The notes beneath the pieces are model-generated. The model had not been told where the DNA came from and ran no database searches. It saw nothing but the letters and a program-made list of their open reading frames with translations. From NCBI RefSeq assembly GCF_026151205.1, contig NC_087081.1:3787246-3851245 (forward strand): a stretch of 64,000 bases of DNA, in the 5' to 3' direction. This DNA comes from Bolinopsis microptera (taxonomy: Eukaryota > Ctenophora > Tentaculata > Lobata > Bolinopsidae). Made by a program: the position numbers and the translations under genes. Each line of letters opens with the position of its first letter. Within the stretch, counting starts at the first letter, position 1. This document shows positions 19,550-42,743 of this stretch, one piece after another.

Positions 19550-21024
19550 TATCATAGTCTGCCTAATATAAAACCAACGTACAGGAAGTTTCAAAACGAA
19601 GTGTTAAATGACAAAATTACAACTGATAAAAGAAAATTCTGGAACTTCCAGTTCAATTTCAAATTTTGGGAGATATCACTTCACACTTTTTAATTTCTTG
19701 TTTAGACCGGTTTTTTAATTAAAAACCTTACAAAGAATGTAACCAAGGACAAAAACCGGACACTGTCCAAGACTTCGAATTAAGCTATTTTTTCTTGTTC
19801 TATCATCATTTATTTATTATTTTTCTTTTTGTTGTCGACTCCATTGTGTATATCTATTATCGGCAGGATATGAGTAATTCAATTGAACTAGAAGAAAATG
19901 GTAACGTGAGTGATAATGCTACAGCCCAAGCTGAACCAGATTACAATGCCAGATCCAGGATCCAGGAATCTTGTAAGAAAATAAGCCCCTTTCTCATGGT
20001 ATGCGGTGCAGGACTGTTATTCAGTACCCAAGCATTACTCTCCAAGCTTATGCCTATACCTCCTGGACAATATGTTTTAACTTCAGCCACATTCAATATC
20101 CCATTGTGTCTCGTCATCTGCTTTTATTCTGGAGTTGATGTGTCTCCTTTGAGTATCAGAGAAAACAGGATGTGGTTTTGGGGCAGAGTTGTCCTCGGGG
20201 GAGTAGCGTCAGGAGGTAAGATTCTTGTAGTAAGGAACATGGATATTGGTGATGCTACAGCTATCATATTCTCTGCTCCCATTTGGGCAGGTTGTTTGGC
20301 TAGAATAATTCTTAAAGAAAAGTACACCATCATCAATTTATTTGCCACAACATTTGGTTTAATTGGAATTGTTCTAGTAACAAAGCCAGGTATTCTATTC
20401 CCGGACAAGGATGGTGGAGGAGAAAGTTCAGTACCATGGGCATGTGCGACTTTAGGAGTCTCAGTTATTGCTGCCGTGTCCTATGTTTGTGTTAGAGGAG
20501 CAGGTCAAGCCGTACATCCAATGAAATTTGTACTCTACACGGCGTGTGTTGAATTGGTTTGTGGTTTTGTAACCAACCCAATTATGGGACAATCTCTAGT
20601 ATTGCCCCCTTGTGACTGGGTAAGAATTGCGTTGGCATTGTGTGGTGTAGGAGCAACCTTGGCAAATGTTTTGATTGTAAGGGGACTATCTCTTGAAAAC
20701 TCTGGGCCTGCTTCCTTAATGAGGAACTGGGATATTGTTTACGCGTACATTTTCCAGATTATCTTCTTCAAGATCACTCCTGATTGGATCAGTCTTCTTG
20801 GGGCAGGACTAATCGTGAGCACAGCTCTTCTTCAAGGGATTGATAAACTCTTTAATATTTCCTGTGGTATACAATTCTAAAACTTTTGATATTGTGGGAA
20901 TTTATGAATTACAACCATTATGTTTTGACTTACCATCATTTGAGTATCGTAATTTGTAAGATATGAATTTTCGATTTGTTTACCTTTCTGTAGGAAGCTT
21001 CCTCCGACCAGAATCCAACTTCTA
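19550..21024 (+). repeat. Tandem segmental duplication, copy 1
   Basis: Matches 21640-23094. The shared segment begins near the CCAACGTACAGGAAGTTTC motif and ends at CCAGAATCCAACTTCTA. It carries the whole transporter gene with both flanks. Confidence 0.85.
19870..20880 (+). CDS. EamA/DMT-family transporter, SLC35G-like, copy 1
   Basis: Single-exon gene of 336 residues from ATG 19870. The in-frame sequence before it has no ATG. After a polar N-terminus rich in Glu, Asp and Asn come about ten hydrophobic segments, starting PFLMVCGAGLLFSTQALLSK and ending LGAGLIVSTALLQGIDKLF. These form two EamA-type halves. The first half carries GGKILVVRNMDIGDATAII and FGLIGIVLVTKPG; the second carries ANVLIVRGLSLENSGPASLM. 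This pattern is typical of the SLC35G (TMEM20/22) branch of the drug/metabolite transporter superfamily, whose substrates are mostly unknown. Length fits the family. It is nearly identical to copy 2 downstream, apart from the first 35 or so residues. Confidence 0.88.
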   Translation: MSNSIELEENGNVSDNATAQAEPDYNARSRIQESCKKISPFLMVCGAGLLFSTQALLSKLMPIPPGQYVLTSATFNIPLCLVICFYSGVDVSPLSIRENRMWFWGRVVLGGVASGGKILVVRNMDIGDATAIIFSAPIWAGCLARIILKEKYTIINLFATTFGLIGIVLVTKPGILFPDKDGGGESSVPWACATLGVSVIAAVSYVCVRGAGQAVHPMKFVLYTACVELVCGFVTNPIMGQSLVLPPCDWVRIALALCGVGATLANVLIVRGLSLENSGPASLMRNWDIVYAYIFQIIFFKITPDWISLLGAGLIVSTALLQGIDKLFNISCGIQF

Positions 21025-21639: not shown

Positions 21640-23094
21640 ATTATCCTAATCTGCCTATAACCAACGTACAGGAAGTTTCAAAACGAGGTGTTAAATAACC
21701 AAATTACAACTGATAAAAGAAAATTCTGGAACTTCCAGTTCAAACTTGGGAGTTATCACTTTTTAATTTCTTGTTTAAACCGGTTTTTTAAAATAAAAAA
21801 CCTTACAAAAATGTAACCGAAGACAAAAAATTAAAATTATCGAAGACGTCAAATTAATTTATTTTTGCTTTTCCTATTATCATTTATTTATTATTTTCAT
21901 TGTCGACTCCATCGTGTATATCTATAATCCAGGAAATGAGTTATTTGATTGAAGCTGATGATGAAGTGAGTGATATTGCTTCAGCCTCAACTCCTTTGCT
22001 GCAAGCTGCACCAGATAACATCACCAGATCCGGGGAATCTTGTAAGAAAATAAGCCCCTTTCTCATGGTATGCGGCGCAGGACTGATATTCAGTACCCAA
22101 GCATTACTCTCCAAGCTTATGCCTATACCTCCTGGACAATATGTCTTAACTTCAGCCACATTCAATATCCCATTGTGTCTCGTCATCTGCTTTTATTCTG
22201 GAGTTGATGTGTCTCTTTTGAGTATCAGAGAAAACAGGATGTGGTTTTGGGGCAGAGTTGTCCTCGGGGGAGTAGCGTCAGGAGGTAAGATTCTTGTAGT
22301 AAGGAACATGGATATTGGTGATGCTACAGCTATCATATTCTCTGCTCCCATTTGGGCAGGTTGTTTGGCTAGAATAATTCTTAAAGAGAAGTACACCATC
22401 ATCAATTTATTTGCCACAACATTTGGTTTAATTGGAATTGTTCTAGTAACAAAGCCAGGTATTCTATTCCCGGACAAGGATGGCGGAGGAGAAAGTTCAG
22501 TACCATGGGCATGTGCGACTTTAGGAGTCTCAGTTATTGCTGCCGTGTCCTATGTTTGTGTTAGAGGAGCAGGTCAAGCCGTACATCCAATGAAATTTGT
22601 ACTCTACACGGCGTGTGTTGAATTGGTTTGTGGTTTTGTAACCAACCCAATTATGGGACAATCTCTAGTATTACCCCCTTGCGACTGGGTAAGAATTGCG
22701 TTGGCATTGTGTGGTGTAGGAGCAACCTTGGCAAATGTTTTGATTGTAAGGGGACTATCTCTTGAAAACTCTGGGCCTGCTTCCTTAATGAGGAACTGGG
22801 ATATTGTTTACGCGTACATTTTCCAGATTATCTTCTTTAAGATTACTCCTGATTGGATCAGTCTTCTTGGGGCTGGACTAATCGTGTGCACAGCTCTTCT
22901 TCAAGGGATTGATAAACTCTTTAATATATCCTGTGGTATAGAATTTTAAAACTTTTGATATTGTGGGAATTTATGAATTACAACCATAATGTTTTGACTT
23001 ACCATCATTTGAGTATCGTAATATGTAAAATATGAATTTTCGATTTGTTTACCTTTCTGTTGGAAGCTTCCTCCGACCAGAATCCAACTTCTAA
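21640..23094 (+). repeat. Tandem segmental duplication, copy 2
   Basis: Partner of 19550-21024. Its similarity to copy 1 ends at ACTTCTA near 23094, exactly where the dispersed repeat begins in copy 1. Confidence 0.85.
21936..22949 (+). CDS. EamA/DMT-family transporter, SLC35G-like, copy 2
   Basis: Single exon of 337 residues from ATG 21936. From ESCKKISPF to the stop it differs from copy 1 at only about four residues (GLIFS for GLLFS, VSLLS for VSPLS, IVCTA for IVSTA, CGIEF for CGIQF). The N-terminal tail (MSYLIEADDEVSDIA, then STPLLQAAPDN) is quite different. Same ten-segment EamA architecture and probably the same transport role. Both copies are intact with no stop or frameshift, so both may be active. 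Confidence 0.88.
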   Translation: MSYLIEADDEVSDIASASTPLLQAAPDNITRSGESCKKISPFLMVCGAGLIFSTQALLSKLMPIPPGQYVLTSATFNIPLCLVICFYSGVDVSLLSIRENRMWFWGRVVLGGVASGGKILVVRNMDIGDATAIIFSAPIWAGCLARIILKEKYTIINLFATTFGLIGIVLVTKPGILFPDKDGGGESSVPWACATLGVSVIAAVSYVCVRGAGQAVHPMKFVLYTACVELVCGFVTNPIMGQSLVLPPCDWVRIALALCGVGATLANVLIVRGLSLENSGPASLMRNWDIVYAYIFQIIFFKITPDWISLLGAGLIVCTALLQGIDKLFNISCGIEF

Positions 23095-24075: not shown

Positions 24076-27000
24076 TCAATGTTTTACCGTCCCCCAAGAT
24101 TCCAATGCTGCTTTGAGGTCTGGCTGGCCATTGAACCATTGTCGCAAGGTATTATGAATAACATCCAGCACATCAGAGTAGAGAATTGGGTTTAAAAATG
24201 AGTTTATAGGGAGGAGGATGATTGCGGCGTAGGGGTACATTGCTGTAGCGTCCGCAACACCGGCAAAGTGGAGGATTGCTGAGGAATTGGTTTTAAATTG
24301 CTATCGTCAGATCCGAATTTGAGAAATACAAAAAATCGTTTAATAGATTCTACGTGGAAATATTTAAAACACTACCAAAATGTTATCGAAATACGTGGAT
24401 AAAGCTTCAAAACTGAAATTTCATTTTCACTACATTTACTGACATTTAAATTTTTGTTTGATTGTAATTTCTGTTTGGATGCAGAATTATTATTAAAAGG
24501 TTTGACTACCCAATTAGCCAATTACCACCCAATTACTACCCAATTACCACCATATTACCACCCAATATATCCTCACCAGAAGTACAAACGGGAACCCAAC
24601 AGCAGAAATCCACCACTATTAGCCTCGCTATCTTCTTCTGCAGGGTATTGCTCATACGACTTTTCTTGCTGCTCCTACTTCGGGACGACACCTGGATATG
24701 CAATTGATTATGCGATTATGTAATTATGTAAATAATTATTCAATTAATTTGGTAATTATTTGTGTAATTAATTATGAAGGGTGGTCTTGGTAGGATGGGC
24801 CAGATGAGGGGTTATTTCAGATCATAAAGTTAACTCATGTTATTTTCTTTATAAATCTACTTTTACTTTCAAGTTTAACTTAATGGTCAGTCCAGGCGTT
24901 TATACACTGTTTCAAATTAAAGAACAAGATTCCTAAGTATCATATCAATTTCCGCGACCTTGTTCTAACACAACAAACCTTGTAAGTAAGAATATAACTG
25001 CCCATGATGTACAAGAAGGTTGCAAAATCAAACATCATGATGAAAAACGGGTAACTCCAGTTCAGATCCGCGGTGGTTGTGAAGAGCTTCGGTAGGCAAA
25101 CACCGTGTTTGGAATAATAACTCATAGGCCTCGGCCATTCCGTGGCTTTAGGCCAGATTTCCCTGAAAATAGGTTAGATTTATTATATTTTAGTTTAGTT
25201 ATTGAAATTGTTTAGATTTATCATATTTTAGTTTAGTTATTAAAATAGGTTAGATTTATTATATTTTAGTTTAGTTATTAAAATAGTTTAGATTTATTAT
25301 ATTTTAGATATTAAAATAGTTTAGATTTATTATATTTTAGTTTAGTTATTAAAATAGTTTAGATTTATTATATTTTAGTTTAGTTATTAAAATTGTTTAG
25401 ATTTATTATATTTTAGTTTAGTTATTAAAATTGTTTAGATTTATTATATTTTAGATATTAAAATAGTTTAGATCTACATATTATATTTTAGTTTAGTTAT
25501 TAATTCTATTATCATATTTTAGTTTAGTTATTAATTCTATTCGAGAAGTTGACGGTTCAAGATCTGCCGAATAACCTACCGGTCACGTGATAATTCTCAA
25601 TTCTTTTTTAAAAAAGTAAGAAAAAAGTAAGAAAATAAGAAAATAAGAAAATAAGAAAATAAGAAAATAAGAAAATAAAAAAATAAGAAAATAAGAAAAT
25701 AAGAAAATAATAAAATAAGAAAATAAGAAGATAAGAAAATAAGAAAATAAGAAAATAAAAAAATAAGAAAATAAGAAAATAAGAAAATAAGAAAATAAGA
25801 AAATAAGAAAATAAGAAAATAAGAAAATAAGAAAATAAGAAAATAAGAAAATAAGAAAATAAGAAAATAAGAAAATAAGAAAATAAGAAAATAAGAAAAT
25901 AAGAAAATAAGAAAATAAGAAAATAAGAAAATAAGAAGATAAGAAAATAAGAAGGTGACGATCAGATCTCGTTACAAAGACAATACGCCCAAAAGTGCTG
26001 TCCTACTCTTTAATAGTTTGTGTATTTTTGCCTGATCACCTGGTAAGAGTTATGAGAGTTGACCAAGAAGTTGCGGAGTTGATAACTGAAGAGTTGTGGT
26101 AGTGCCTGAGGAACATAACGTGCGCTGCCCTGCTACCATCTGAAGTTTACAAGATATCATTTGAAGTTTACAAAATAACTTCTGAAGTTTACAAGATAAT
26201 ACCAAGATTCATCTGGAGTTTACAAGATAATACCAAGATATCATCTGGAGTTTACAAGATAATACCAAGATTCTTCTGGAGTTTACAAGATAATACCAAG
26301 ATATCATCTGGAGTTTACAAGATAATACCAAGATATCATCTGGAGTTTACAAGATAATACCAAGATATCATCTGGAGTTTACAAGATAATACCAAGATTC
26401 ATCTGGAGTTTACAAGATAATACCAAGATATCATCTGGAGTTTACAAGATAATACCAATATATCATCTGAAGTTTACAAGATAATACCAAGATATCATCT
26501 GGAGTTTACAAGATAATATCAAGATATCATCTGGAGTTTACAAGATAATATCAAGATATCATCTGAAGTTTACAAGATAATACCAAGATATCATCTGAAG
26601 TTTACAAGATAATACCAAGATATCATCTGGAGTTTACAAGATAACATCCGAAGTTTACAGGATTTTACCAGTAATGAACCAAGTTTTTAGGGCCGGGGTT
26701 ATCGGTTAACTAGAAATTATCAAATATAAGATAATTAATAAATTACTGAAATATAAATTAGTTACCAAGTAGGATTGGATTGTCAGTGTAGTGGTACTCG
26801 TCAACAAAGTAGTCATGTAAACCAGGGAGAAGAGGAGTCAAGGCTAGAGCGCTGGACAAAGCCCAGAGGGTGAGTGAGATCAGGGTACAACCTGTAACCG
26901 CTTTAAACCTGGTGAATAACCGCTTATAACATGGTGAATAACCGCTTTAAACCAGGTCTATAACCGCTTTAAACCTGGTGAATATAGCCGCTTTAAACCT

Positions 27001-28834
27001 GGTGAATAACCGCTTTAAACTTGGTGAATAACGGCTTTAAACCTGGTGAATAACCGCTTTAAACCTGGTGAATAACCGCTTTAAACTTGGTGAATATAGC
27101 CGCTTTAAACCTGGTGAGTAACCGTTTTAAACCTGATGAGCAACTGCTTTAAATCTGGTCATTCAAATTTAGATCGTCGGTTTGCAGATTTGAACGAACG
27201 AATTTGCCAACAAATGTTTTATTACAAGTTCACTAGTGAAAGGCTGGTCACTTAAAGCTCGATATTACCTCGGTTACCTCTGTTACCTTTGGTTACCTCG
27301 GTTACCTCTGTTACCTTGGTTACCTTGGTTACCTTGGTTACTTTGGTTACGTACCTGGTTGTGTCAGTGGAGTGAGGTCGGACCACAATCATCATCCTGT
27401 AAGTGGACAATACTCCCAGACTCATAACGGAGGTCTGGACGGAGAGGACCGAGAGAACGCCCAACATCTGGCACATCCGTGATAACTTCCACTCTGTAGC
27501 TTCCAGGCAATAGTGTCCTTTCTGCGGGAGCAACGTGATGGAAAAGTTTTAAACAGGTTAAAGCCAGTCTAAACCCTGGCTTCATAACACGAAGGCCTCG
27601 TTTTAATTAGTCGTGAATTCCATTTTGTAGCTTTCAAGAAGCTTTCAGTATAATGTAGGGAGAATATTATGTGACTTTTGTTTGCCAGCTAGAGGTTTAT
27701 AATCCCGGTCATCAAATGTTCTACATATGCGCATCTGGTTACCTTGGTTACCTTTGGATAGCCAATACACTTTTGGACAAAAGACACATAATTTCGGCCG
27801 AAGTTCTACCCCAACCCCCTAAAACATCCTCATCCAATTCAATCTGGGAGCCTTAGAGCCTGGCAGCTAACAATTGCATTGTCTACAGGGTAGCTTCATA
27901 GGTATCACCTGATTAAACTGTAGTGCAGAGTTACTTTTAATATGATGATATTAAATTGAAAATTCGTGCATTGCATGGAATGAGGATATTACCACGAGAA
28001 GTTTATCGTATAAATTTCAACAAAAGACAGGTAGAAATTAACATAAACAAGTTCAGGCGGGTTTACGTTTAGGATGGTAGTCCTGTTACAAAATCAAAAT
28101 TATCTTGTGATCGGAAATTTAGTGTGCTTCAGAAAATCTAAGTTGAATATTTGGGATATTTTTATTAAAACCGCATAACATTCTATGAACATTCAATAAC
28201 TGTCTCTGATACGACTCAGTGCCAATAATTTAAGAGGTTCTGATATGGCTAGAAACAAGTGTTCTGCAATGGTTACCAATGGTTACCAGTGGTTACCAAT
28301 GGTTACCAGTGGTTACCAATGGTTACCAGTGGTTACCAATGGTTACCAGTGGTTACCAATGGTTACCAGTGGTTACCAATGGTTACCAGTGGTTACCAAT
28401 GGTTACCAGTGGTTACCAATGGTTACCAGTGGTTACCAATGGTTACCAGTGGTTACCAATGGTTACCAGTGGTTACCAATGGTTACCAGTGGTTACCAAT
28501 GGTTACCAGTGGTTACCAATGGTTACCAGTGGTTACCAGTGGTTCCACTACAATTGACCGATCGAACCAAAAAATCACTGTCACGTGTCAAAAAAAGTAT
28601 GCCATACCTCCCACCACAATCCACATCTATTAATTAACTAATTGATAATTAAACAAGTGAGATAATTAACTGATAAAGTTAGTTAAACAAGTGAGATACC
28701 TGGATTTCGTCCATGGTACCAAGGCTGATCAGGTAAACACCCATCAGGAAGTCGGCGGAGGCCAGGTTGATAATCAATTGTTTGTTTATCAGTGCTACTG
28801 TTGTTATCTTACTGTCCGTTTTCAATGTTCGCAC
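24076..28834 (-). CDS. GPCR exons 14-19: TM2 to TM7 and short tail
   Basis: Exon 14: loop 1 and TM2 ([20 protein letters not shown]). Exon 15: [20 protein letters not shown] and STYRMMIVV (TM3 and the DRY region). Exon 16: TM4 ([20 protein letters not shown]). Exon 17: HGVCLPK in extracellular loop 2 and TM5. Exon 18: basic loop 3 and TM6 ([14 protein letters not shown]). Exon 19: TM7 ([20 protein letters not shown]) and a short tail ending TVKH before TGA. Cysteines KLSRMC (TM3 start) and GVC (loop 2) could form the conserved class A disulfide. TM3 has TYR in place of DRY. Confidence 0.82.
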
Positions 28835-31800
28835 CTACATTCGAGTTCATCAATGAGGATGAAATTATTGGAAAAATGTTATACTCATGATATTGATGCT
28901 TTCGCGCCTGTCACAAAGTTCATTTAAAGATTAGATGTTATAATCAACGACTTCGGTCTGTTAATTGCGACATCGTTCATCACAGTAAAGCCGTAATAAT
29001 GTGACTCAATCGTGTTACTGCGTTATGTTTACCGCATATAGAATGATAAGGAAGATTCCCAACAAACTTACCGCGAATAGAATGACAAGGTAGTTTCCCA
29101 ACAGACTTACCGCGAATAAAATGACAAGGAAGTTTCCCAACAGACTGGCTAGCCCCATGATCCAAACTAAGCCCCTTAGGATGGGGTTAGCGATGATGTG
29201 CTGGTCATCAGAGAGCAGATCCAGGTTACAGTGCTGGCATTCGTCGGAGTTATCGTAACAGTTCCTCCGACCATCACACACCAGGTGCTGGCTTATCTGA
29301 AGTTTTATTCGTTATTGTTTAGTTGGGACTCGGATCAGTTGCTTCTTGGTTACTACTTGGTTACTTCTTGATAATCCCATTACTAAAATCATGAGAAGAG
29401 GTCGACGTATTTCGTATTGTTAATAAGTTAATAAAGAATAAAACAAAGAAAATGAAAGTTGACAGGTTTACATGGTAAGGAGGAGCTGAATTGCAGTAAA
29501 AGAATTGAGAACAGTTCCTCTCGTCCTCTCCGTTAGGACAGTCAAGAGTTCCATCACACACAGCAACAGGTGAGATGCAGGTCCTATCCTCGCTGTCGTA
29601 GCAATCAAACCCAACCCTACAAAAAGGGGTGTTAGTTAGATATCTTGTTAAACTAACTAAAACCCACCCTACAATAAGGGGTGTAAAGTTAGATATCTTG
29701 TTAAACTAACTAAAACCCACCCTACAATAAGGGGTGTAAAGTTAGATATCTTGTTAAACTAACTAAAACCCACCCTACAATAAGGGGTGTTAGTTAGATA
29801 TCTTGTTAAACTAACTAAAACCCACCCTACAATAAGGGGTATTAGTTAGATATTTTGTTAAACAAACTAAAACCCGCCCTACAATAAGGGGTATTAGTTA
29901 GATATCTTGTTAAACTAACTAAAACCCACCCTACAATAAGGGGTATTAGTTAGATATCTTGTTAAACTAACTAAAACCCACCCTACAATAAGGGGTATTA
30001 GTTAGATATCTTGTTAAACCAACTAAAACCCACCCTACAATATGGGGTATTAGTTAGATATCTTGTTAAACTAACTAAAACCCACCCTACAATAAGGGGT
30101 ATTAGTTAGATATCTTGTTAAACTAACTAAAACCCGCCCTATAATAAGGGGTGTAAAGTTAGATATCTTGTGAACATATAAAAATATAATTGGGTTCTTG
30201 ATTAGTGGACTGGCAGAATTGATTAAAGTTTTCCCCTACGCCCCCACTTACTCAAAAGAGAGAAGGCCGTATTTGTACCCTCTACAACCACACTTAGACT
30301 CATTATACTTGTTCCCCGCTCCACATAAGTGAGCACAGTAATCCGGGACTGATTCTCCGCAGGAATCCGCACATTCGTCCTGCATTAATCAAGTTAATTG
30401 AGTAATATTACAAATTCAAATTCTCCCTTAAAATTCAATTACTAAACTCATTTTTACTTTAATTAAAAACATATTCAGTTATATTAATTATTATTAATTA
30501 TGATTATCACATCAATTATTATTAATTATAATTATCATATTAATCATGATGAACGTACCAGTTTATCATGGACATCCCCGACACCATCACACAGCAGAGA
30601 TTGCGGTACAGATTCCCGCTCTACTCGTTCTATTACCATCCCACTGTTAAACGATACACTGTACCTGGTACAAGATACAGTAATACCCCACTGTTAAACG
30701 ATACACTGTACCTGGTACAAGATACAGTAATATCCCACTGTTAAACGATACACTGTACCTGGTACAAGATAGAGTAATATCCCACTGTTAAACGATACAC
30801 TGTACCTGGTACAAGATAGAGTAATATCCCACTGTTAAACGATACACTGTACCTGGTACAAGATACAGTAATATCCCACTGTTAAACGATACACTGTACC
30901 TGGTACAACATACAGTAATATCCCACTGTTAAACGATACACTGTACCTGGTACAAGATACAGTAATATCCCACTGTTAAACGATACACTGTACCTGATAC
31001 AAGATACAGTAATATCCCACTGTTAAACGATACACTGTACCTGGTACAAGATACAGTATTATCCCACTGTTAAACGATACACTGTACCTGGTACAAGATA
31101 CAGTAATATCCCACTGTTAAACGATACACTGTACCTGGTACAAGATACAGTAATATCCCACTGTTAAACGATACACTGTACCTGGTACAAGATACAGTAA
31201 TATCCCACTGTTAAACGATACACTGTACCTGATACAAGATACAGTAATATCCCACTGTTAAACGATACACTGTACCTGGTACAAGATACAGTAATATCCC
31301 ACTGTTAAACGATACACTGTACCTGGTACAAGATACAGTAATATCCCACTGTTAAACGATACACTGTACCTGGTACAAGATACAGTAATATCCCACTGTT
31401 AAACGATACACTGTACCTGGTACAAGATACAGTAATATCCCACTGTTAAACGATACACTGTACCTGATAAAAGATACAGTAATATCCCACTGTTAAACGA
31501 TACACTGTACCTGGTACAAGATACAGTAATATCCCTGTACCTGGTACAAGATACAGTAATATCCCACTGTTAAACGATACACTGTACCTGGTACAAGATA
31601 CAGTAATATCCCACTGTTAAACGATACACTGTACCTGATACAAGATACAGTAATATCCCACTGTTAAACGATACACTGTACCTGGTACAAGATACAGTAA
31701 TATCCCACTGTTAAACGATACACTGTACCTGGTACAAGATACAGTAATATCCCACTGTTAAACGATACACTGTACCTGGTACAAGATACAGTAATATCCC

Positions 31801-34800
31801 ACTGTTAAACGATACACTGTACCTGGTACAAGATACAGTAATATCACACTGTTAAACGATACACTGTACCTGGTACAAGATACAGTAATATCCCACTGTT
31901 AAACGATACACTGTACCTGGTACAAGATACAGTAATATCCCACTGTTAAACGATACACTGTACCTGGTACAAGATACAGTAATATCCCACTGTTAAACGA
32001 TACACTGTACCGGGTACAAGATACAGTAATATCCCACTGTTAAACGATACACTGTACCTGGTACAAGATACAGTAATATCCCACTGTTAAACGATACACT
32101 GTACCTGGTACAAGATACAGTAATATCCCACTGTTAAACGATACACTGTACCTGGTACAAGATACAGTAATATCCCACTGTTAAACGATACACTGTACCT
32201 GGTACAAGATACAGTAATATCCCACTGTTAAACGATACACTGTACCTGGTACAAGATACAGTAATATCCCACTGTTAAACGATACACTGTACCGGGTACA
32301 AGATACAGTAATATCCCACTGTTAAACGATACACTGTACCTGGTACAAGATACAGTAATATCCCACTGTTAAACGATACACTGTACCTGGTACAAGATAC
32401 AGTAATATCCCACTGTTAAACGATACACTGTACCTGGTACAAGATACAGTAATATCCCACTGTTAAACGATACACTGTACCGGGTACAAGATACAGTAAT
32501 ATCCCACTGTTAAACGATACACTGTACCTGGTACAAGATACAGTAATATCCCACTGTTAAACGATACACTGTACCTGGTACAAGATACAGTAATATCCCA
32601 CTGTTAAACGATACACTGTACCTGGTACAAGATACAGTAATATCCCACTGTTAAACGATACACTGTACCTGGTACAAGATACAGTAATATCCCACTGTTA
32701 AACGATACACTGTACCTGGTACAAGATACAGTAATATCCCACTGTTAAACGATACACTGTACCTGGTACAAGATACAGTATTATCACACTTTCGAGCCAA
32801 ATTTGGCAGGAAAGCAGAATTGATATTACATGCCCCGATGGGGAGCACTGGCTCTCACCCGGGGGCATGAAATATCAATCAGTTGCTCAGAGAGAGTCCG
32901 ATATTCCCATAGGAACAAGGAGCCCACTCTCAACAACTGTTCTACTACTGTGAGGTACTGATTTAAATAAAGATTTAAATCAACAACCTGAAGTAGTCTA
33001 TGACCGTAAATGCAATGATCAGATAAACTTTCCAGATTCAGGAAAAATACATATTTATACCTTGTTTTAAAAACATTTCCTTGCGTTTGAGATGTGTTAA
33101 GCAAAATACAATTTTTTGTTGTAAAACTTTTTCAAGCTGTTGCTTTTTTACTGCACTTCATAGTTCAAAACCTAATTAGGCTTCGGATGATGAAACAAAG
33201 TAAAAACTCCCTGGTCTGTACGAGTTTCAAGCGACTTAAGGTTACTGAAAACGAGATCAAAGTTTACAGGCAGACTTGAAAGTTGCACAAAGTTTTGGTA
33301 CTTGTCAGCGATACAATCAATCAGGCTCATTAATTTCCTTAATCGCTTACTTGAAATTAAAAAGGAAGTATCATAACAAACTACAGTCACCCTCACAAAA
33401 AGTAGTAAACACAGAAACGATGTTTGATCTATTCGAAGGAAGAAAACACACAAAACAATAATCTTGGTGTCAAGTAGTTATATTTGAAAGAAAATTATTG
33501 TCAAGAATTGATAAAGGGCTGGTCAGCAAATCATAACGTAATAAATTGTGATACATTACGATATGGGATCATTCGCATATTAATTTAGCCACATTTCAGC
33601 CATTTCAGACCTCACTTTTAACCCCCTCTGATCCCTTCTGTGAGCCATATTCCATATAGAAATTGTGCAGAAATTATACTAGGCTTTTCCAAACCGGCTT
33701 CCCCTAGAATGGCTTGCGGAATTCGTGGCTGATATATAAAGAGACTTATAAATTCTGTACAATAAAGAGCGAAAATTCTATCCCTGCACCAGTTTTAACT
33801 GAAGTTTAGTTAGTGCAATAAAAACATTCTATAAAATTTATTATGTATATAAAGATATCAAGGGACGAATGGCGTAACTTAATCCGCTATAATCCGGTTA
33901 TAAATTGGTCTGGTCGCTGGGGCAAATTTAGGTCCGATGATTGATATGCTGCCATTCTTTAGACCAATTCAATATTGCTAACAGTACGGGTGAACTGCCT
34001 GGCAATGACCAGGGTGGTTATAAAAGGCTGGTGAAGTGCGTTCTAAAATGGTATTACCAGGCCGATTATCGGGCTATTAAGTCAAGAGTTACTTTCATAA
34101 ACAATACTAAAGAGTACGGATGTCTGATATTAAAACAATCTAGAGTTGTATTGAAGAGATACATTATATTACGGCTGTTCTGATAATTTCTAGTGAAGCA
34201 AATAATGGCAAGATGAATATAAGCAGACTATTATAATACTCGATAAAATTCAATAAAAGTCAATGATTACAAGTTCCAGTGATAAATCATTCTGAAATAA
34301 CAGACAATCAAGACGGGCGATAATATTGTTGATATATGAATTAGGGCGTGTAGTACAAGTACAACATGAACAGTTGAAAATTTGGACTTATGAATAGACA
34401 ATCATGGCGCCACAGCCCAATTCAAATATAACAACCAGGAAATACTATCACCTTATCGCAGATTAGTATTACATGATAAGGACTAGGATGTAATCAACAC
34501 TAAAACAGATGTTCTATACATTATACATCTTCAGTTTTAATGACTCAAAATATATCTAATAGAAATAAAGTATAAGAATCACCTCACATCGATTGATATG
34601 CAGGAAATAATTTATGATTAAAATACGCGCTCGTGGTGGAATATTCTAGAATGCAATAAGTACAAGACCCATAGGCGTGAATATATTGATATTCGATGCA
34701 CTACGTATCAATAAAAAGCAAATTGGGCGCGGCATACAGCATTCACTGTGTCATAAATGTGGGAACGTGAGATCCTAATTTTACGTATTGTATCTTCGAT

Positions 34801-37800
34801 ATCTGAAATACTAACTTATCGAGAGCTATATATATAGCTTGGACATTATGAACATAAATAAGTTCAACATGTCTAGTTTTGCTTTGGTGAGATTTATAAC
34901 TAACGTTTGATCAAATTCTGCTTTCCCGGCCAAATTTGGCTCCAAAGAAAGTGTGATAAAACATTTATCACATGCCTTCTCATGCGATATCAACATTTTC
35001 AAAACTCGGCAAGCCTCGTGATTGAAAATGTCGATATAACCCTCGGCAAGCCTCGGGAATTATCGAAACTTTCGCTAACTCGGCAAGCCTCGTGGGCGAA
35101 AGTTTTGATATCGCATGAGAAGGCATGTGATAAATGTATAATATCCCACTGTTAAACGATACACTGTACCTGGTACAAGATACAGTAATATCCCACTGTT
35201 AAGGGGGCCTACACCAAAACAGTGGTTTTGTACTGCCGTCCAGACCAAATGACCTCATAGTCATAGGCAGTTTAGTGACCTTCTAGCGCACCGTTTCCAC
35301 ACCAAAAAAAAATCATTTTGAGAATACTTATTTTTGTAATCGAGCATTTCCTGGTTAAGAGTGCAATTTTCGGAAAAAATAATTTTTTGGTTGAGACGCT
35401 ATAAGGCGCAGTTTTTTTCTTTCTCCCATAACTTCAAAGGGAAGCATTTTAAGGTGTTTTGTTGTTCATAACTCATATATAAATGTGCTAGTTGCGGTTA
35501 TTTTGCGCCCTTCAAAATGTCACTAGCACATTCCTATCAAAATTTTAGAAAAATCAGTAAATATTAAAAACGAAAAATGTGCCTAAATTTGTTGTTTGGC
35601 TTTTGAGGTCCAATAGATCTGAAGATAAATGAGTAAAAACATTTTTGAGGGCATCAAAAACTGCGCTAGAATTCAGAGAACAATTTGATGTCAACCATCA
35701 AATCAATCCGATTTTCCCTGACTGACTTTTTGTTAAAATAAGCCTGAAAAGGACAATTTTAGCTTTTTGACTTTAAAAATTTATAACACACCAGGCTTTT
35801 TAGATACGATATCAAGATTTTACACACACCTTGACATAGATGTGAATAAACGGTGAGCAAAATTTCAACCCGATACCGCAAGTAATGATTAATTTATAGC
35901 GTCTCAACCAAAAAATAATTTTTTCCGAAATTGCACTCTTAACCAGGAAATGCTCGATTACAAAAATATGTATTCTCAAAATGATTTTTTTTGGTGTGGA
36001 AACGGTGCGCTAGAAGGTCACTGAACTGCCTATGAGGTCATTTGGTCTGGACAGATTTGGTGTATGCCCGCCCCCTTAAACAATACATTGTATACCTGGT
36101 ATATAAGATACAGGGCTTAGCATGCATGTAACATGCATATTGTAAACAAACAAACCTCCAATTACTGGTAAGTTGGGGTTTTACTGTTAATTTCTATGAT
36201 AAGTCGAACAATCGGAGTAGCAATCAAATTGTTTTAATGAGTTTTTGGTTATAGCTTTTTTACCATTTTAGTGGCTAGTTTTATTTTTTAATGAACTGGC
36301 TAGTTTTATTTTTTAATGAACTTGCTGTTTAACCTTTTGAAAACATAACAATTAGAGAAATTTAATTTTGAATAAAAATTGTTGAGCTTCATTGCAGAAA
36401 ACGTACCCCCACTGAAAATCAGTACAGTTCCGTTCATCTTCAGCGTGTAGACAGTCCACAACATTATCACATAGCTTATCTCTAGTGACCCACTGTCCGG
36501 GTGTCTCCGTGCAGTTGAATCCTTTCCATTGGCACACCTGCAAGTGTATTTAGATAATATTAATATTACTAAGTAGATATATATCTACTTAGTATTTATA
36601 TATAATTTATATGTAATATATATATATATATATATATATCTACGTAGCTATTATATATAATAGCCCCTATATAAAAGCCCCTTGAGGGTTCATTTTAATG
36701 CAAATGTCCGGTCAAACAACGTCTGACAAGGTAGATAATATTAATGAACCAATTAATCAAGTTTAATTTATGAATTCATTAATCCCACCCCGCAGTAGCA
36801 GCACAGTTCCACTAGGGATTTGACACTAGTGTGATAATATACAAATATAAAGTATATAATCAGAATAAACTTATCAGACATGGTCTCCAAAAGAGTATTT
36901 CCTAGGATGCCATATTCTTCCACGGTGCTTTTAAAAGTAATAATATCACAGAATACATTTACCCATATTTAATTCATAAAATTAGCAGCTACGATAATAC
37001 CTTTGAAAATATTTGTCACCTACAGATAACTTGTGACAAACAACATGAAAAATAAAACGATAGATAACGTATCAAAAAACTGACAAAATAAAGTAACAAA
37101 TAAGGTAACAAATAAGTTAACAAATATAACAACTCACCCCATAAAGCTCATCATTCCCATCCCTACAATCCTCCGTCCCATCACACAACTTATCTTCATC
37201 GAACCAGCTGACAGTACCATTATTACCATAGCAACTGAACCCCCGGCTAGTATCACAGTACATTTCATCCAACCAGTCACCGCAGTGGTTCACCCCGTCA
37301 CACAGAGTGGAGCCGGAGATCCAGCTTCCTTCAGAGCACCTGGTGGGTGGTAACTTTAGTGCTTCCTTCAGAGCACCTGGTGGGTGGTAACTTTAGTGGT
37401 TCCTTCAGAGCACCTGGTGGTGGTAACTTTAGTGGTTCCTTCAGAGCACCTGGTGGGTGGTAACTTTAGTGTTTCCTTCAGAGCACCTGGTGGTGGTAAC
37501 TTTAATGTTTCCTTCAGAGCACCTGGTGGGTGGTAACTTTAGTGCTTCCTTCAGAGCACCTGGTGGGTGGTAACTTTAGTGCTTCCTTCAGAGCACCTGG
37601 TGGGTGGTAATTTTAGTGCTTCCTTCAGAGCACCTGGTGGGTGGTAACTTTAGTGCTTCCTTCAGAGCACCTGGTGGGTGGTAACTTTAGTGTTTCCTTC
37701 AGAGCACCTGGTGGGTGGTAATTTTAGTGTTTCCTTCAGAGCACCTGGTGGTGGTAACTTTAGTGTTTCCTTCAGAGCACCTGGTGGGTGGTAACTTTAG

Positions 37801-40800
37801 TGTTTCTTTCAGAGCACCTGGTGGGTGGTAACTTTAGTGCTTCCTTCAGAGCACCTGGTGGGTGGTAATTTTAGTGTTTCCTTCAGAGCACCTGGTGGGT
37901 GGTAACTTTAGTGTTTCCTTCAGAGCACCTGGTGGGTGGTAACTTTAGTGTTTCCTTCAGAGCACCTGGTGGGTGGTAACTTTAGTGTTTCCTTCAGAGC
38001 ACCTGGTGGGTGGTAACTTTAGTGTTTCCTTCAGAGCACCTGGTGGTGGTAATTTTAGTGTTTCCTTCAGAGCACCTGGTGGGTGGTAACTTTAGTGTTT
38101 CCTTCAGAGCACCTGGTGGTGGTAATTTTAGTGTTTCCTTCAGAGCACCTGGTGGGTGGTAATTTTAGTGTTTCCTTCAGAGCACCTGGTGGTGGTAATT
38201 TTAGTGTTTCCTTCAGAGCACCTGGTGGTGGTAATTTTAGTGTTTCCTTCAGAGCACCTGGTGGGTGGTAACTTTAATGCTTCCTTCAGAGCACCTGGTG
38301 GGTGGTAATTTTAGTGTTTCCTTCAGAGCACCTGGTGGGTGGTAACTTTAGTGTTTCCTTCAGAGCACCTGGTGGTGGTAATTTTAGTGTTTCCTTCAGA
38401 GCACCTGGTGGGTGGTAACTTTAGTGTTTCCTTCAGAGCACCTGGTGGTGGTAATTTTAGTGTTTCCTTCAGAGCACCTGGTGGGTGGTAACTTTAGTGT
38501 TTCCTTCAGAGCACCTGGTGGGTGGTAACTTTAATGTTTCCTTCAGAGCACCTGGTGGTGGTAATTTTAGTGTTTCCTTCAGAGCACCTGGTGGGTGGTA
38601 ACTTTAGTGTTTCCTTCAGAGCACCTGGTGGGTGGTAACTTTAATGTTTCCTTCAGAGCACCTGGTGGTGGTAATTTTAGTGTTTCCTTCAGAGCACCTG
38701 GTGGGTGGTAACTTTAGTGTTTCCTTCAGAGCACCTGGTGGGTGGTAATTTTAGTGTTTCCTTCAGAGCACCTGGTGGGTGATAACTTTAGTGTTTCCTT
38801 CAGAGCACCTGGTGGGTGGTAACTTTAGTGGTAACTTTAATGGTAACTTAAGTGGTAATTTAAAAAATCATAACATTGTGTTGTTAATTAATCTTGAACA
38901 CAATGTAAATTAATTGTAATGTCCACCAGGGACTGTGTGAGCAGTACTAACAATCTACATGACATTAAATAACAAACTAACAGGGTATATTGTAAAGCTA
39001 CCCCGTCCACATCTCACATGTTCCCAATACTGTGCGCTTTAGTAAGATTACCCCAGATTACCCCAGATTACCCCAGATTACCCCAGATTACCCTAGATTA
39101 CCCCAGATTACCCCAGATTAAGGTACAAAAGATTAAATATGGCAGGAGGCCTTGCCAAGGTGTTGTAAGTGAGTGTCTTCAGCTCTAAAGTGAATGAACA
39201 GTTAAATTTTTTACACTTTTAATAATGTCAGTAAAGGTTTAGAACGGAAGATTAACAGATAATTAACATATTATTATATGTTAATATTACAGATCAGGGA
39301 TTAATATTGTCTCTTACTTGAAGGTAGATTCACAAGGTTCGATCTCGTCTGAATTATCAGCACAGTCCTTTACCCCGTTACAAACATCTTTGGGGTTTAC
39401 AACCTGAGGTGATTTTAGCTTTATCTGAGTGAATCAAACAACAATATTGATTAAACAAAGATCATTAAAATCTATTGATCAAAAGGAAGCTCGCAAAATT
39501 GTATATCACTTGGCCTTCAGAATGAAAACTTTCCACTCAGAATATAAAGTTTGGAATTAAAGGTTTTTAAAAATTTTATTCAGATTTCAATGCTTGAAAT
39601 TTGAATGAAAGAAAGCTTAGAAAATAAACCTGCCACTTTTCCTCGGAGCAGAGAAAAGTTCCCGGACAGTAGATGTCCTCAGTGTTCCCCACACACACGG
39701 AACCTTGTCCATCACACACGTGTTTCTTACCCGCGCAAACTGCTCCTTCCTGAAATATTTCCTTCAAGTGCGTTTCTTGCAACTGTGTATTAACCGTGTG
39801 TCAACCAATAACCTTGTGCAAAGTGTTCGTTCCCTTACCGTGCGTTAATACCATCGATAAATTACCGAATTGCCTTCCTTGTGTTTGACTACCTAAAAAG
39901 CTCTTTCCAATGCTAAATTATGCAGTTTTGCAGTTTCGGGCTCCGAAACCTGATATAAAGGACCCAGTTGTGCGATAGGTGTATTTTAGTTTAGGTACAT
40001 ATTATTATTTAAGAATTGGATTATATTGAAATTTAGAATAACTTTAATCTTAATATGTAATCACGTTCTAATCCTAATGAAGTAATTGCTCAGTAGTATT
40101 TATATAGTTTATATGTTGTTTGTTGTAAATTATCATGAGTCATCTTCACCTCAAATTGTACCGTTTAGATTCCATAGTTTCAGCACCTCAAATCATATAA
40201 GTTCTCATTTCCCAGCAAATAGTTTCATACCTGTCATTAAGTTCTGTAGACGCATGTCACTTCAACCAATAAGCTTCACTTAATTAATTAGTCATCCTAT
40301 CAGGCCTATTTCATTTATTCACGTGACACACCATCCCATTTATAATCTTCCGCTTTAGTTCACCTTGTTGAAAGAGTTTGTCACCATTAGTCTGCTTACT
40401 CCTAAAATCATTCCTCTTTCATGTCACATGACCATTCCTCACAAGTTTTAGATTCACGAGTCATGATATAGTTTTGAAGATTCAGTTCTGTGGATTACCA
40501 TTTTAATAAGTTTATATTTTTCATTCTCTTCCGCAAAACTCTTTATTTAAAGTCTTTTATTTGTAAACCTACCACTAAGTCGAGCAGCTAGGTACACTAA
40601 GTGTGCACTACACAGAGAACCTGAAGGGTTTTCAGCCCTCTACTATATGAAATGCAGGTAAATGTGCTAAAGCGAACTATAATAATATTATCGATGATAT
40701 TATTAATATTAATATTAATATTAATATTAATATTAACATCAATATTAATATTAATATCAATATTAATATTAATATCAATATTAATAAATAAATATTAATA

Positions 40801-42743
40801 TTAATATTAATATTAATATTAATATCAATATTAATAAATAAATATTAATATTAATATTAATAATATTATTATAAGTGATAGTATTAATGATATTATTAAT
40901 ATAACTTACGTGGGGGGAATTAGAAGATGGTTGACAATAACGACTACCCTCACACCCACACTCATCCCACCCGTCGTTACAGTCGTTACTGCCATCACAC
41001 ACCTAATTGTTGTTGAGGATAACGCGGATCGAGCAATAGATACTTAGTATGCTAGCCAAGAAATATGAACTATTTTTCATGATCACGCAAGGAATTCTGG
41101 TAGTCAATAACTTCACCGTGGTTAATGTGCAGAGAGAAACTTTTATACAGGAGAAGATGGGAACTAAAATGTATTTTGAAGTGTTGTGCTGGTAGGCAAA
41201 TCTGTTTTTGCTGTTCAAATATTTTATATACATAATTGACTTATGTTATAATTATATAATACTTGTTTCTAACCTGATGCTTGGATAGGATTTTGTTCAT
41301 ATTTGGACACACCCGGAAACTGCCACAGTCCAGTCCGGTCCTAGAACCAATAGTGATCTCCTGGCATTCTCCGCATTTCTGAAATAGTTGACAGTGATTG
41401 AGTGGTGAAACACAGAACCAATAGTGATCTCCTGGCAATCTCCACATTTTTGAAATAGTTGACAGTGATTGAGTGGTGAAACACAAAACCAATAGTGATC
41501 TCCTGGCATTCTCCGCATTTCTGAAATAGTTGACTGTGATTGAGTGGTGAAACACAGAACCAATAGTGATCTCCTGGCATTCTCCGCATTTCTGAAATAG
41601 TTGACAGTGCAAGTGATTGAGTGGCGAAACACAGCTGACAGCTCGATGGAATTCCACAGAGCTGTGTCGAGCTTGTTGTAGACATGGTAACTATGGTATG
41701 TAGTCTTGGTTATCATAGAATCAGAGAAACTGATAGCATTCAGGTTCCAGTGCTCACCAATCTTCAGTTCCAAAAAGAGATTTTGGAAGATTTTTGAAGA
41801 GGAGATTTTCTGCCGTCCCCTATACCGGAATTTCGCGGTTTCGACTGAAATTTTGACCAGTGACCAATCAGTGAGGTCTGTGAGAGTGACACGTCGCCAT
41901 CAAGGTACTGGAAGCAGTATATCCGGAGAAAACTTTGATGAAATGGAAATTTTGAATATGTCCTAACGGTAGGACATATTCAAATTTCAGCTGTCCTCGA
42001 CCCAAATCTCAATGTTTTGACTGAATTTGTCTTGAATGATCATCTTACAAGGTCATTGGGGACGGCACAAGACACGATTGAGGTACTCGAAGTTCTATTC
42101 CCAAATAAAGCTTTGATAAACGGAAAATCATCAAAATATAAAAAAGATCAGTCAGTTCAAGATACGTACTTGTTTAGCAGATACACAAAGAGTGAGATTC
42201 TTCGGAGCCGTTCTGCACATATCATCATCAGCCCTGTGAATAAGAAAATTAGTCGGAGTTAGAGTCGGAGTTAGAATCGGAGTTAGAGTCGGAGTTAGAG
42301 TCGGAGTTAGAGTCGGAGTTAGAGTCGGAGTTAGAGTCGGAGTTAGAGTCGGAGTTAGAGTCGGAGTTAGAGTCGAAGTTAGAGTCGGAGTTAGAGTCGG
42401 AGTTAGAGTCGGAGTCAGAGTCGGAGTTAGAGTCGGAGTCGGAGATTCGCAAGGATTCGAGATTTTAGCGATACAGAAAAATAGTAAATGTAATAATTTA
42501 CAATTTGAACTTACAGGCAATCACACTCTGACCCAGTGACACATTCACTGAAGCATAAGAACCGGTTCGAAATCACTGCAAAAGTAATTTGAATTTAACA
42601 ATAAAGAATCATATAAATTTAAGTAAAAATTTACTTAAATACCCAATTTTGGCGTTATATTCTGGTACCTAGTTAACAAAGTATTCATAAAATAAAAGAA
42701 GCTACTCACTGACAATAAAGATAATAACGTTTGTTGATGACAT
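24076..42743 (-). CDS. LDLa-repeat rhodopsin-like GPCR (GRL101/relaxin-receptor-like), 19 exons
   Basis: Exons in order: 42743-42710, 42575-42515, 42233-42170, 41378-41274, 41002-40910, 39749-39630, 39403-39318, 37339-37138, 36537-36407, 30643-30559, 30379-30252, 29616-29472, 29296-29111, 28834-28700, 27521-27355, 26891-26766, 25162-24979, 24691-24577, 24278-24076. Total 2370 nt, a multiple of three. Signal peptide [20 protein letters not shown] is split over exons 1 and 2. About nine LDLa domains follow, then a seven-helix class A domain with [13 protein letters not shown] (TM2), STYR in the DRY position, and NPILY (TM7). It should sit in the plasma membrane and signal through G proteins; the ligand is unknown. 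Known GRL101 and relaxin receptors carry leucine-rich repeats between LDLa and TM1; I find none here. All junctions are in phase except around the TM4 exon, which is off by one on both sides. Confidence 0.82.
24513..24560. repeat. Short AATTACCACCC-type repeat
   Basis: Four to five degenerate units close to the exon 18 donor at 24577. Confidence 0.6.
25166..25550. repeat. About 37-bp AT-rich array at the exon 17 acceptor
   Basis: Units of TTAGATTTATTATATTTTAG followed by TTTAGTTATTAAAATAG, about ten copies. The array starts within a few bases of the acceptor of exon 17 and the unit shares its AGGTTAGATTTATTATA context. Confidence 0.85.
25608..25955. repeat. (GAAAATAA)n array
   Basis: About 40 units of the 8-bp motif AAGAAAAT with few variants. 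One strand is purely purine with T interruptions. Confidence 0.9.
26150..26665. repeat. 32-bp array, about 15 copies
   Basis: The unit contains TCATCTGGAGTTTACAAGAT and AATACCAAGATA. It lies in the intron between exons 16 and 17. Confidence 0.9.
26892..27140. repeat. 22-bp array at the exon 16 acceptor
   Basis: On the minus strand the unit reads GTTTAAAGCGGTTATTCACC. The true exon 16 acceptor reads GTTTAAAGCGGTTACAG, so the array appears to derive from the acceptor region. About eleven copies. Confidence 0.85.
27270..27353. repeat. GGTTACCTT array at the exon 15 donor
   Basis: Units of GGTTACCTTGGTTACC run into the donor of exon 15, which reads CCAG|GTACGTAACC on the minus strand. Confidence 0.8.
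28266..28545. repeat. 20-bp array GGTTACCAATGGTTACCAGT, 14 copies
   Basis: Nearly perfect units in the intron between exons 14 and 15. All three plus-strand frames stay open across it, which explains the spurious GYQWLP-type proteins. Confidence 0.95.
29030..29145 (-). repeat. 39-bp unit containing exon 13 end and its donor, three copies
   Basis: On the minus strand each unit carries the SLLGN(F/Y)LVILFA codons followed by a GTAAGT donor. Only the first copy is needed for the exon; the other two lie in the intron as intact decoy exon ends. Confidence 0.85.
29111..30643 (-). CDS. GPCR exons 10-13: membrane-proximal LDLa domains and TM1
   Basis: Exon 10 holds a degenerate LDLa ([13 protein letters not shown]) that lacks its first cysteines and the usual DC. 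Its acceptor lies in the first unit of the 47-bp array. Exon 11 has a Cys-rich linker ([18 protein letters not shown]). Exon 12 encodes [11 protein letters not shown] and [17 protein letters not shown]. Exon 13 encodes [15 protein letters not shown], then [20 protein letters not shown] and TM1 ([15 protein letters not shown]). The LDLa-to-TM1 step is direct, with no leucine-rich repeats. The end of exon 13 with its donor is present three times in tandem. Confidence 0.8.
29617..30175 (-). repeat. 52-bp array carrying the exon 12 acceptor, about 11 copies
   Basis: On the minus strand the unit reads CACCCCTTATTGTAG|GGTGG, matching the real acceptor CACCCCTTTTTGTAG|GGTTG. There are no distinct spacers, so this is a minisatellite and not a CRISPR array. 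Confidence 0.9.
30640..32781 (-). repeat. 47-bp array carrying the exon 10 acceptor, about 45 copies
   Basis: On the minus strand the unit contains GTATCGTTTAACAG|TGGGAT, which is the acceptor and first bases of exon 10 (30643). Units are highly homogeneous, with a few GGTAC/GATAC and CCGGG variants and one shortened unit near 31535. Further fragments at 35141-35202 and 36076-36115 show that the array was split by transposon insertions. Confidence 0.92.
32782..34958. mobile_element. 2.2-kb element with terminal inverted repeats inserted in the array
   Basis: The left end reads TATCACACTTTC then GAGCCAAATTTGGC and GGAAAGCAGAATT. The right end carries the same motifs inverted (AATTCTGCTTTCCCGGCCAA, then GAAAGTGTGATA). 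The interior has no recognisable transposase, so it is a non-autonomous or decayed DNA transposon. Confidence 0.7.
34961..35137. mobile_element. 177-bp fold-back MITE
   Basis: Long inverted arms starting ACATTTATCACATGCCTTCT and ending in its inverse (AGAAGGCATGTGATAAATGT). The middle repeats ACTCGGCAAGCCTCG about three times. Confidence 0.75.
35199..36079. mobile_element. TTAA-flanked 873-bp element (piggyBac-like MITE)
   Basis: Flanked by TTAA at 35199-35202 and 36076-36079, the target duplication used by piggyBac-type transposases. Ends are GGGGGCCTACACCAAA and its imperfect inverse (TTTGGTGTATGCCCGCCCCC), and about 200 bp of inverted similarity extends inward. The TTAA lies inside a unit of the 47-bp array, which proves insertion after array formation. 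No coding region. Confidence 0.8.
36080..36406. other. Intron 9 remainder
   Basis: A decayed 47-bp unit, then AT-rich sequence with a duplicated GGCTAGTTTTATTTTTTAAT. No gene seen. Confidence 0.5.
36407..42743 (-). CDS. GPCR exons 1-9: signal peptide and LDLa domains 1-6
   Basis: Exons 1-3 encode the signal peptide and a Cys-rich lead segment ([18 protein letters not shown]). LDLa cores with the typical CDG..DC...DE..C spacing are [15 protein letters not shown] (exon 5), VCDGQGSVC with a changed spacing (exon 6), [14 protein letters not shown] (exon 7), [17 protein letters not shown] and [14 protein letters not shown] (exon 8), and [17 protein letters not shown] (exon 9). The acidic residues of the calcium cage are mostly kept, so folded calcium-binding modules are likely. 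Exons 4 and 8 start inside tandem arrays that repeat their own acceptor. Confidence 0.8.
36550..37137. other. Intron 8
   Basis: AT-rich, with a (TA)n tract at 36610-36640 and inverted ATCTACTTAG motifs. No coding exon seen. Confidence 0.5.
37340..38835 (-). repeat. 37-bp array carrying the exon 8 acceptor, about 40 copies
   Basis: On the minus strand each unit reads TTACCACCCACCAG|GTGCTC then TGAAGGAA, which is the exon 8 acceptor and the first 15 or so exon bases. A 36-bp variant lacking one G (GGTGGTGG) is interspersed. Spurious frames on the plus strand come from the repeat. Confidence 0.93.
38836..39317. other. Intron 7
   Basis: No exon seen. It contains a 10-bp array (AGATTACCCC, seven copies) at 39048-39120. 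Confidence 0.55.
39750..40699. other. Intron 5
   Basis: AT-rich without recognisable exons. I see no repeat array at the exon 6 acceptor. Confidence 0.5.
40690..40905. repeat. (ATTAAT)n microsatellite at the exon 5 donor
   Basis: Imperfect ATTAAT/ATCAAT hexamers that begin right after the donor GTAAGTTATATTAATA of exon 5. Confidence 0.85.
41340..41630 (-). repeat. 71-bp array carrying the exon 4 acceptor, four copies
   Basis: On the minus strand each unit has ACTATTTCAG|AAATGCGGAG followed by the codons of [12 protein letters not shown], then about 35 bp of intron. The copy nearest exon 4 is the functional one; the rest form decoy exon starts. Confidence 0.9.
41631..42169. other. Intron 3
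   Basis: No exon recognised. It includes an inverted copy (about 42045-42130) of the dispersed repeat found near the transporter genes; both give a DTIEVLEV reading. Confidence 0.5.
42246..42445. repeat. 12-bp array GAGTTAGAGTCG at the exon 3 acceptor
   Basis: About 16 copies ending 13 bp from the exon 3 acceptor. The open frames (SDSN or TPTL repeats) are artefacts. Confidence 0.9.

Follow-up and report, generated by a model that had tools for sequence, protein, structure and literature searches.

Tandem arrays across splice junctions of a ctenophore LDLa-7TM receptor gene resemble amphioxus mirages in their anatomy

Why do so many splice junctions of a single gene lie inside, or directly against, tandem repeats, and how could such repeats have come to hold coding bases? 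The question is raised by a receptor gene of Bolinopsis microptera (assembly GCF_026151205.1), within a stretch of 64,000 nucleotides of contig NC_087081.1 that was analysed as a whole and is called the window here. An earlier note on this DNA had described minisatellites seeded on the junctions of the gene, and had proposed that duplication across intron-exon borders generates arrays of decoy splice sites in what could be a recurrent process. In our exon-by-exon rebuild the gene is complete on the minus strand at 24076..42743, with the ATG at 42743 and the stop at 24076, and it comprises 20 exons and 19 GT-AG introns with a stop-free frame of 835 residues; the exon numbering and the gene ends were the same as those given before. 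In Pfam, with E values up to 1 admitted, the protein matched Ldl_recept_a in seven stretches and 7tm_1 and nothing besides, and no leucine-rich repeats were found between the LDLa modules and the 7TM part. The best-scoring solved chain was relaxin receptor 1 (RXFP1), at 71.7 bits and with an alignment running from TM1 to TM7. LDLa modules and a rhodopsin-type 7TM part are thus shared with the RXFP1-like LDLa-LRR-7TM receptors, whereas their leucine-rich repeats were absent from the window receptor in the Pfam scan. The gene is an intact LDLa-7TM receptor gene. Elsewhere the window holds an inverted pair of very similar genes, presumably glycosyltransferase-like, at 53205-54874 (-) and 60930-62537 (+), the minus copy of which is spread over two frames. 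The ORFs at 19723-20880 and 21858-22949 are likewise very similar to each other, and we take them to be SLC35G-like.

A single-exon (intronless) paralog of the receptor is present on C1, and its alignment has 0 gap columns in 21 at 7 of the 19 junctions (2, 8, 14, 15, 16, 18 and 19, each numbered after the exon upstream of it) and one or two at junctions 4, 12, 13 and 17. The remaining eight junctions have at least three gap columns and all lie within the variable N-terminal half, and therefore the paralog is no help there; for the junctions of the 7TM part its alignment lends support to the gene model. The start of exon 16 falls within a unit of its array, and the Phe-Lys that its opening codons encode is also present in the paralog. 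The end of exon 13 is the first donor of its array, which is the only donor that fits the alignments with RXFP1 and the paralog. Exon 17 was also considered as a spurious exon, and this was ruled out because the paralog has the same stretch in line. In a genome-wide search the 7TM part of the receptor gave 103 matches, all 103 on C1-C13; 101 of them span most of the 7TM part in one frame, and 99 of these are stop-free. LDLa-7TM receptors thus apparently form a very large intronless family, from which the window gene stands out by its many introns. The listing is biased towards unbroken matches (exons of the window gene itself are absent from it), so that intron-bearing relatives may be hidden.

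The 19 introns contain 22 merged tandem arrays, which occupy 7318 of 16160 intron bases (45%). As listed in Table 1, 15 of these arrays reach a junction, and 15 of the 38 junctions lie inside an array or within 20 bp of an array end, namely the acceptors of exons 3, 4, 8, 10, 12, 16, 17 and 18 and the donors of exons 5, 8, 10, 13, 14, 15 and 19. Exons 1, 2, 6, 7, 9, 11 and 20 have no array within 20 bp, in line with the earlier description of exons 6 and 7 as array-free. Six arrays carry 6-36 exon bases, over the acceptors of exons 4, 8, 10, 12 and 16 and the donor of exon 13. All five junctions previously listed as embedded are among them; among the five listed as merely abutting, the exon 3 acceptor and the exon 5 and exon 15 donors proved to be so, whereas the exon 16 acceptor is really embedded and the exon 17 acceptor lies inside its array by 3 bases. 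The exon 18 acceptor and the donors of exons 8, 10, 14 and 19 had not been listed and join them here. The array of exon 10 is split by an insert of ∼2.35 kb at 32791-35138 of the window, and its detached end beyond the insert is identical to the array units. At eight of the 15 junction matches no exon bases lie inside the array, and these abutting arrays may be mirages (a term explained below) whose junction copies have decayed, or perhaps ordinary intronic arrays that happen to lie near.

Table 1. Positions of the arrays at junctions of the receptor gene (window coordinates) and of the copies of a ∼797-bp element
Feature	Position	Strand	Unit and copies	Exon bases or distance	Exon
Array before exon 3 acceptor	42251..42439	-	12 bp x 15.8	17 bp before acceptor	42233-42170
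Array over exon 4 acceptor	41343..41609	-	71 bp x 3.8	36 exon bases	41378-41274
Array after exon 5 donor	40679..40901	-	6 bp, AT-rich	8 bp after donor	41002-40910
Array over exon 8 acceptor	37326..38862	-	37 bp x 41	14 exon bases	37339-37138
Array after exon 8 donor (weak)	37086..37126	-	12 bp x 3.4	11 bp after donor	37339-37138
Array over exon 10 acceptor	30638..32790	-	47 bp	6 exon bases	30643-30559
Detached end of exon 10 array	35139..35202	-			
Array after exon 10 donor	30482..30544	-	28 bp x 2.1	14 bp after donor	30643-30559
Array over exon 12 acceptor	29607..30171	-	52 bp x 10.8	10 exon bases	29616-29472
Array over exon 13 donor	29029..29146	-	39 bp x 3	36 exon bases, coding TM1	29296-29111
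Array after exon 14 donor (weak)	28644..28698	-	17 bp x 3.2	1 bp after donor	28834-28700
Array after exon 15 donor	27265..27350	-	9 bp	4 bp after donor	27521-27355
Array over exon 16 acceptor	26895..27159	-	22 bp	14 exon bases	26908-26766
Array at exon 17 acceptor	26137..26663	-	∼32 bp	3 exon bases	26139-26040
Array before exon 18	25166..25541	-	38 bp	ends 3 bp before exon 18	25162-24979
Array after exon 19 donor	24505..24566	-	33 bp x 2	10 bp after donor	24691-24577
∼797-bp element, copy in villin intron array	L013 1419-2215				
∼797-bp element, copy	L009 5508-6295				
∼797-bp element, copy	L010 2653-3431				
∼797-bp element, copy	L020 3870-4674				

The association of arrays with junctions in the receptor gene is beyond chance. 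When the arrays were clipped to the introns and re-placed at random, a mean of 4.01 fell within 20 bp of a junction, compared with the 15 of 22 observed, and none of 5000 placements reached this number; with a laxer null, in which the arrays could be shifted as far as 36 bases into the exons, the mean rose to 7.68 and 1 of 2000 placements reached it. Eight of the 15 arrays that do not cross a junction lie near one (mean 2.16; 0/5000), and so do 4 of the 8 with a score of at least 100 (1.1 expected; 27/5000). Rotation along the gene gave a mean of 2.56 of the 38 junctions against 15 (5/5000). Counted over all 22 arrays, those that cross a junction (7) did not exceed the lax within-intron null (mean 4.9; 351-402/2000), and at a score of at least 100 their number was borderline (52-64/2000). 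Because the gene was chosen for its arrays, these chance figures hold for the receptor gene only.

One explanation would be that the introns are simply rich in arrays: minisatellites would arise anywhere and fill the introns up to the constrained splice sites, and their ends would come to lie near junctions by packing. The arrays do take up the 45% of intron bases given above and fill most of several introns, and outside the receptor gene the excess at junctions is small. Packing is, however, already built into the within-intron nulls, which still fail. We also sought the first or last 25 bases of each exon inside its own intron, with scores compared with those of the gene's other exons, and the own exon was refound well above the others only for the starts of exons 4, 8 and 16 and the end of exon 13 (local scores of 50, 32, 29 and 40 for exons 4, 8, 16 and 13, against 19, 17, 15 and 20 for the best other exon). 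The overlap of 6-10 bases at exons 10 and 12 is too short for this comparison; at exon 17 the overlap is 3 bases. The duplicated exon bases at exons 4, 8, 13 and 16 need a duplication across the border, which argues against packing, and we consider packing unlikely, though it is the strongest of the alternatives.

We therefore turn to the reading that we prefer, namely that the exon-bearing arrays are mirages, born in situ by duplication across an existing exon-intron border and then enlarged, to which we give a probability of about 80%. Mirages are amphioxus minisatellites that span intron-exon borders, as described in PMC3087553 and PMC3902484; the original report is Canestro 2002 (PMC117041). 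Each junction of the receptor gene has its own unit, which carries the splice site and unique bases of the exon that it adjoins, and the protein frame stays intact despite the arrays. When 15 of the arrays were compared with 314 kb of sequence, 13 matched nothing except at their own location; of the two others, one matched its own detached end and one (AAAATAAG) a simple repeat on C3. In the genome-wide unit search, which among the arrays covered the one at exon 8, its first 175 bases matched nothing outside that array, in a DNA search that skips very common words. Units with their own exon's bases, together with 13 of 15 arrays unmatched in 314 kb, make birth in situ well supported. An origin of the units from a dispersed mobile element was also considered, and found no support in the 314-kb search or in the genome-wide query with the exon 8 array. 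Diverged edge copies have been reported for an amphioxus mirage; here, among exons 8, 10, 12 and 16 (exon 4 has three copies only), divergence was clear at exon 12 (3, 3 and 3 differences in the first three copies against a middle mean of 1.0), slight at exons 16 (2.0 against 0.83) and 8 (2.0 against 1.17), and reversed at exon 10 (0.67 against 1.38).

The copies contain many potential splice sites. Among junction-like copies the AG is kept in 2/3 at exon 4, 29/29 at exon 8, 44/44 at exon 10, 7/7 at exon 12, 4/7 at exon 16 and 15/17 at exon 17. When copies were scored with splice matrices built from the gene's other junctions, scores at least as high as that of the true acceptor were reached by 28/29 copies at exon 8, 43/44 at exon 10, 13/17 at exon 17 and 2/3 at exon 4, and by 0/7 at both exon 12 and exon 16; the true acceptor of exon 10 itself scores poorly (-2.1). 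All 10 GTs in the array at the exon 15 donor score at least 2, and none is as high as the true donor. The array at exon 13 has a unit in frame, and its later copies hold further donors.

Birth of a mirage would start with a short segment across an existing exon-intron border being tandemly duplicated in place, after which slippage or unequal exchange would enlarge the array. In the manner of exon definition, splicing would then choose the copy that leads into the whole exon and its downstream donor, and the decoys would be tolerated, since the site nearest the exon remains in use. Moreover, the true copy, held by selection, could be a lasting putative seed able to reseed its array, so that junction arrays would outlive arrays deeper in the introns, which could explain the junction excess. 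This excess may come from a bias in birth or from survival, and we favour survival combined with decoys tolerated under exon definition. A far wider proposal, that junction-seeded birth of minisatellites is an old recurrent process of animal genomes, found at its densest so far in this ctenophore gene, with the selected splice junction as a lasting template that sustains the array and with the copies also serving, in some genes, as spare splice sites tuned by copy number (stepwise lengthening of TM1 by 13 residues via the exon 13 donors would be one case), seems to us improbable.

Arrays might also be seeded by a repeat-prone motif that resembles the donor core (GGTAAC), with splice sites affected since they contain it. 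GGTTAC/GTAACC is indeed the most enriched hexamer of the array units (12 of 123 units from the window and the C1 sample, about 1.5 expected), but most arrays lack it, and in the receptor gene those with exon bases lie for the most part over acceptors, which makes this explanation quite improbable. In the same 123 units CACGTG occurs in 7, against 0.6-1.1 expected.

A further proposal reverses the order of events: exon segments with AG-GT would have been duplicated again and again, and the introns would be the product. A potato gene is a published instance of such intron gain, the idea has been put forward for amphioxus mirages as well (PMC3087553), and at least 99 relatives of the receptor have the 7TM part in one stop-free frame. 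The introns themselves do not bear this out: the end of the own upstream exon beats all other exons in the last 200 bases of the intron in 4/19 cases, by a margin of at most 2 points, and the start of the own downstream exon beats the others in the first 200 bases in 1/19. In addition, the intron-rich window gene scores higher with RXFP1 (71.7 bits) than the one intronless paralog tested (54.1 bits), and this greater nearness suggests that the introns are old. We regard intron gain as very improbable, and take the arrays to have been laid on old introns, which they probably did not make. That the arrays are selected, with copies serving as alternative splice sites or splicing enhancers, as in stepwise TM1 lengthening by the exon 13 array, could be read from the second donor copy at exon 13 (scoring 9.1 against 8.1 for the true donor) and the in-frame 39-bp unit, and is highly unlikely because the homologs fit only the first donor and none of the units of the six acceptor-crossing arrays (71, 37, 47, 52, 22 and 32 bp) is a multiple of three.

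We then ask how far border duplication extends beyond the receptor gene. Arrays cover 8.8% of a 200-kb C1 sample taken unseen, compared with 19% of the window. The window also holds an interstitial telomere-like repeat at 11430-11607 ((ACCCTA) x 29.7) and arrays of 27- and 30-bp units in open frames (peptide repeats of 9 and 10 residues) at 4982-5164 and 55760-56280. Junctions in the C1 sample and in a 50-kb C3 sample were taken as high-scoring single exons from a home-made exon finder, with a splice model trained on the receptor gene and a coding model trained partly on C1 ORFs; one villin exon border in the C1 test was set by hand. Chained gene models from this finder were set aside, as doubtful small exons had been chained, some of them inside arrays. 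In C1, 5/130 junctions lay near an array end against 3.0 by rotation (562/3000 reach it), 5 against 1.7 for arrays scoring at least 100 (97/3000), and 4/94 against 2.2 with a stricter exon threshold (536/3000); in C3 the count was 1/27 against 0.54 (1290/3000). Two myosin stretches (17.1 kb) contain 12 arrays, none with duplicated exon bases when the junctions were read by eye; one array starts about at a donor and another 7 bp after a donor. In one of the pieces examined, L034, two adjacent copies of one myosin-head exon lie at 3012-3203 and 3255-3485 (profile positions 105-167 and 102-167), possibly as mutually exclusive exons.

Three of the five junction matches in C1 fall in one villin/gelsolin-like gene, and the other two, at 11212 and 99620, are candidates. 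In the C1 sample the junction at the start of the villin/gelsolin exon 41047-40961 (CACTATCAG|GGTTCTCAC) lies within an array that takes in 9 exon bases, and a solved villin aligns gap-free across this junction. Array sequence fills the preceding intron from 19 bp after the donor and runs on into these 9 bases; it is interrupted by a ∼797-bp element that has terminal inverted repeats and, subterminally, TGTCAATTAA arrays. Four copies of this element are present in 200 kb (Table 1); the copy in the villin intron has an apparent 8-bp target duplication (GTCCTGAA), and by rule of thumb we take the element to be hAT-like. Judged from this alignment, the villin/gelsolin gene provides a firm second mirage verified by homology, and the process is therefore not confined to one gene. 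Border duplication yielding arrays of decoy sites, as proposed in the earlier note, is thus supported in two genes. In favour of recurrence, no fewer than seven arrays with exon bases arose separately, six of them in the receptor gene and one in the villin gene. The expected enrichment of array ends within 20 bp of splice sites holds likewise for the receptor gene (15/22 against 4.0); in the regions sampled outside it the excess is weak or absent, and the receptor gene is an outlier.

The earlier note knew of no named system with these features, yet the anatomy matches that of amphioxus mirages, apart from the uneven edge divergence given above. According to PMC3087553 and PMC3902484, mirage units of 10-72 bp occur in Adh3 and of 150-160 bp in globins, and PGBD5 and troponin C are further cases (PMC3902484). 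The globin mirages (BflGb6 and BflGb9) lie at 5′ and 3′ borders and have AG/GT signals in many copies; regular splicing is reportedly undisturbed, and length and somatic instability are described (PMC3087553). The six receptor arrays likewise have units with intron and exon bases of one border, five at acceptors and one at a donor, with AG or GT in many copies, and we file them as mirages on the strength of this anatomy. They differ in density, since the cephalochordate cases, as far as these sources go, involve one or two borders per gene, compared with the ctenophore gene's six arrays that bear exon bases and its 15 borders, out of 38, inside or within 20 bp of an array. They differ also in what is known of them: amphioxus mirages are described there as splicing-neutral, length-variable and somatically unstable, whereas the window arrays are known from the sequence of one assembly.

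Other systems share fewer features. The internal tandem repeats of human segmental duplications (PMC2812944) are also minisatellites at exon-intron boundaries, and they alter gene structure; they are defined by copy-number differences between recent paralogs and come with transcript evidence, whereas the receptor arrays are defined by sequence. In the potato gene, duplication across an intron-exon border likewise supplied splice signals, but as one duplication with a new intron, in contrast to the long arrays without sign of a gained intron here. CeRep25B of C. elegans (PMC4039745) is a minisatellite over-represented near splicing regions and near alternative exons; it is a named repeat with regulatory motifs, whereas the receptor arrays are copies of the local junction. 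Junction-spanning minisatellites already have a name in amphioxus; a literature search of open-licence full texts found none in a ctenophore.

The home-made exon finder placed exon calls inside arrays of the receptor gene, which is a warning that exon borders are hard to annotate in such genomes. With mirages in Bolinopsis microptera, the process would span both the cephalochordates and an animal lineage that is among the deepest-branching. An intact gene with six exon-bearing arrays offers a natural test bed for splicing past acceptors that number in the dozens and match the true ones in score.
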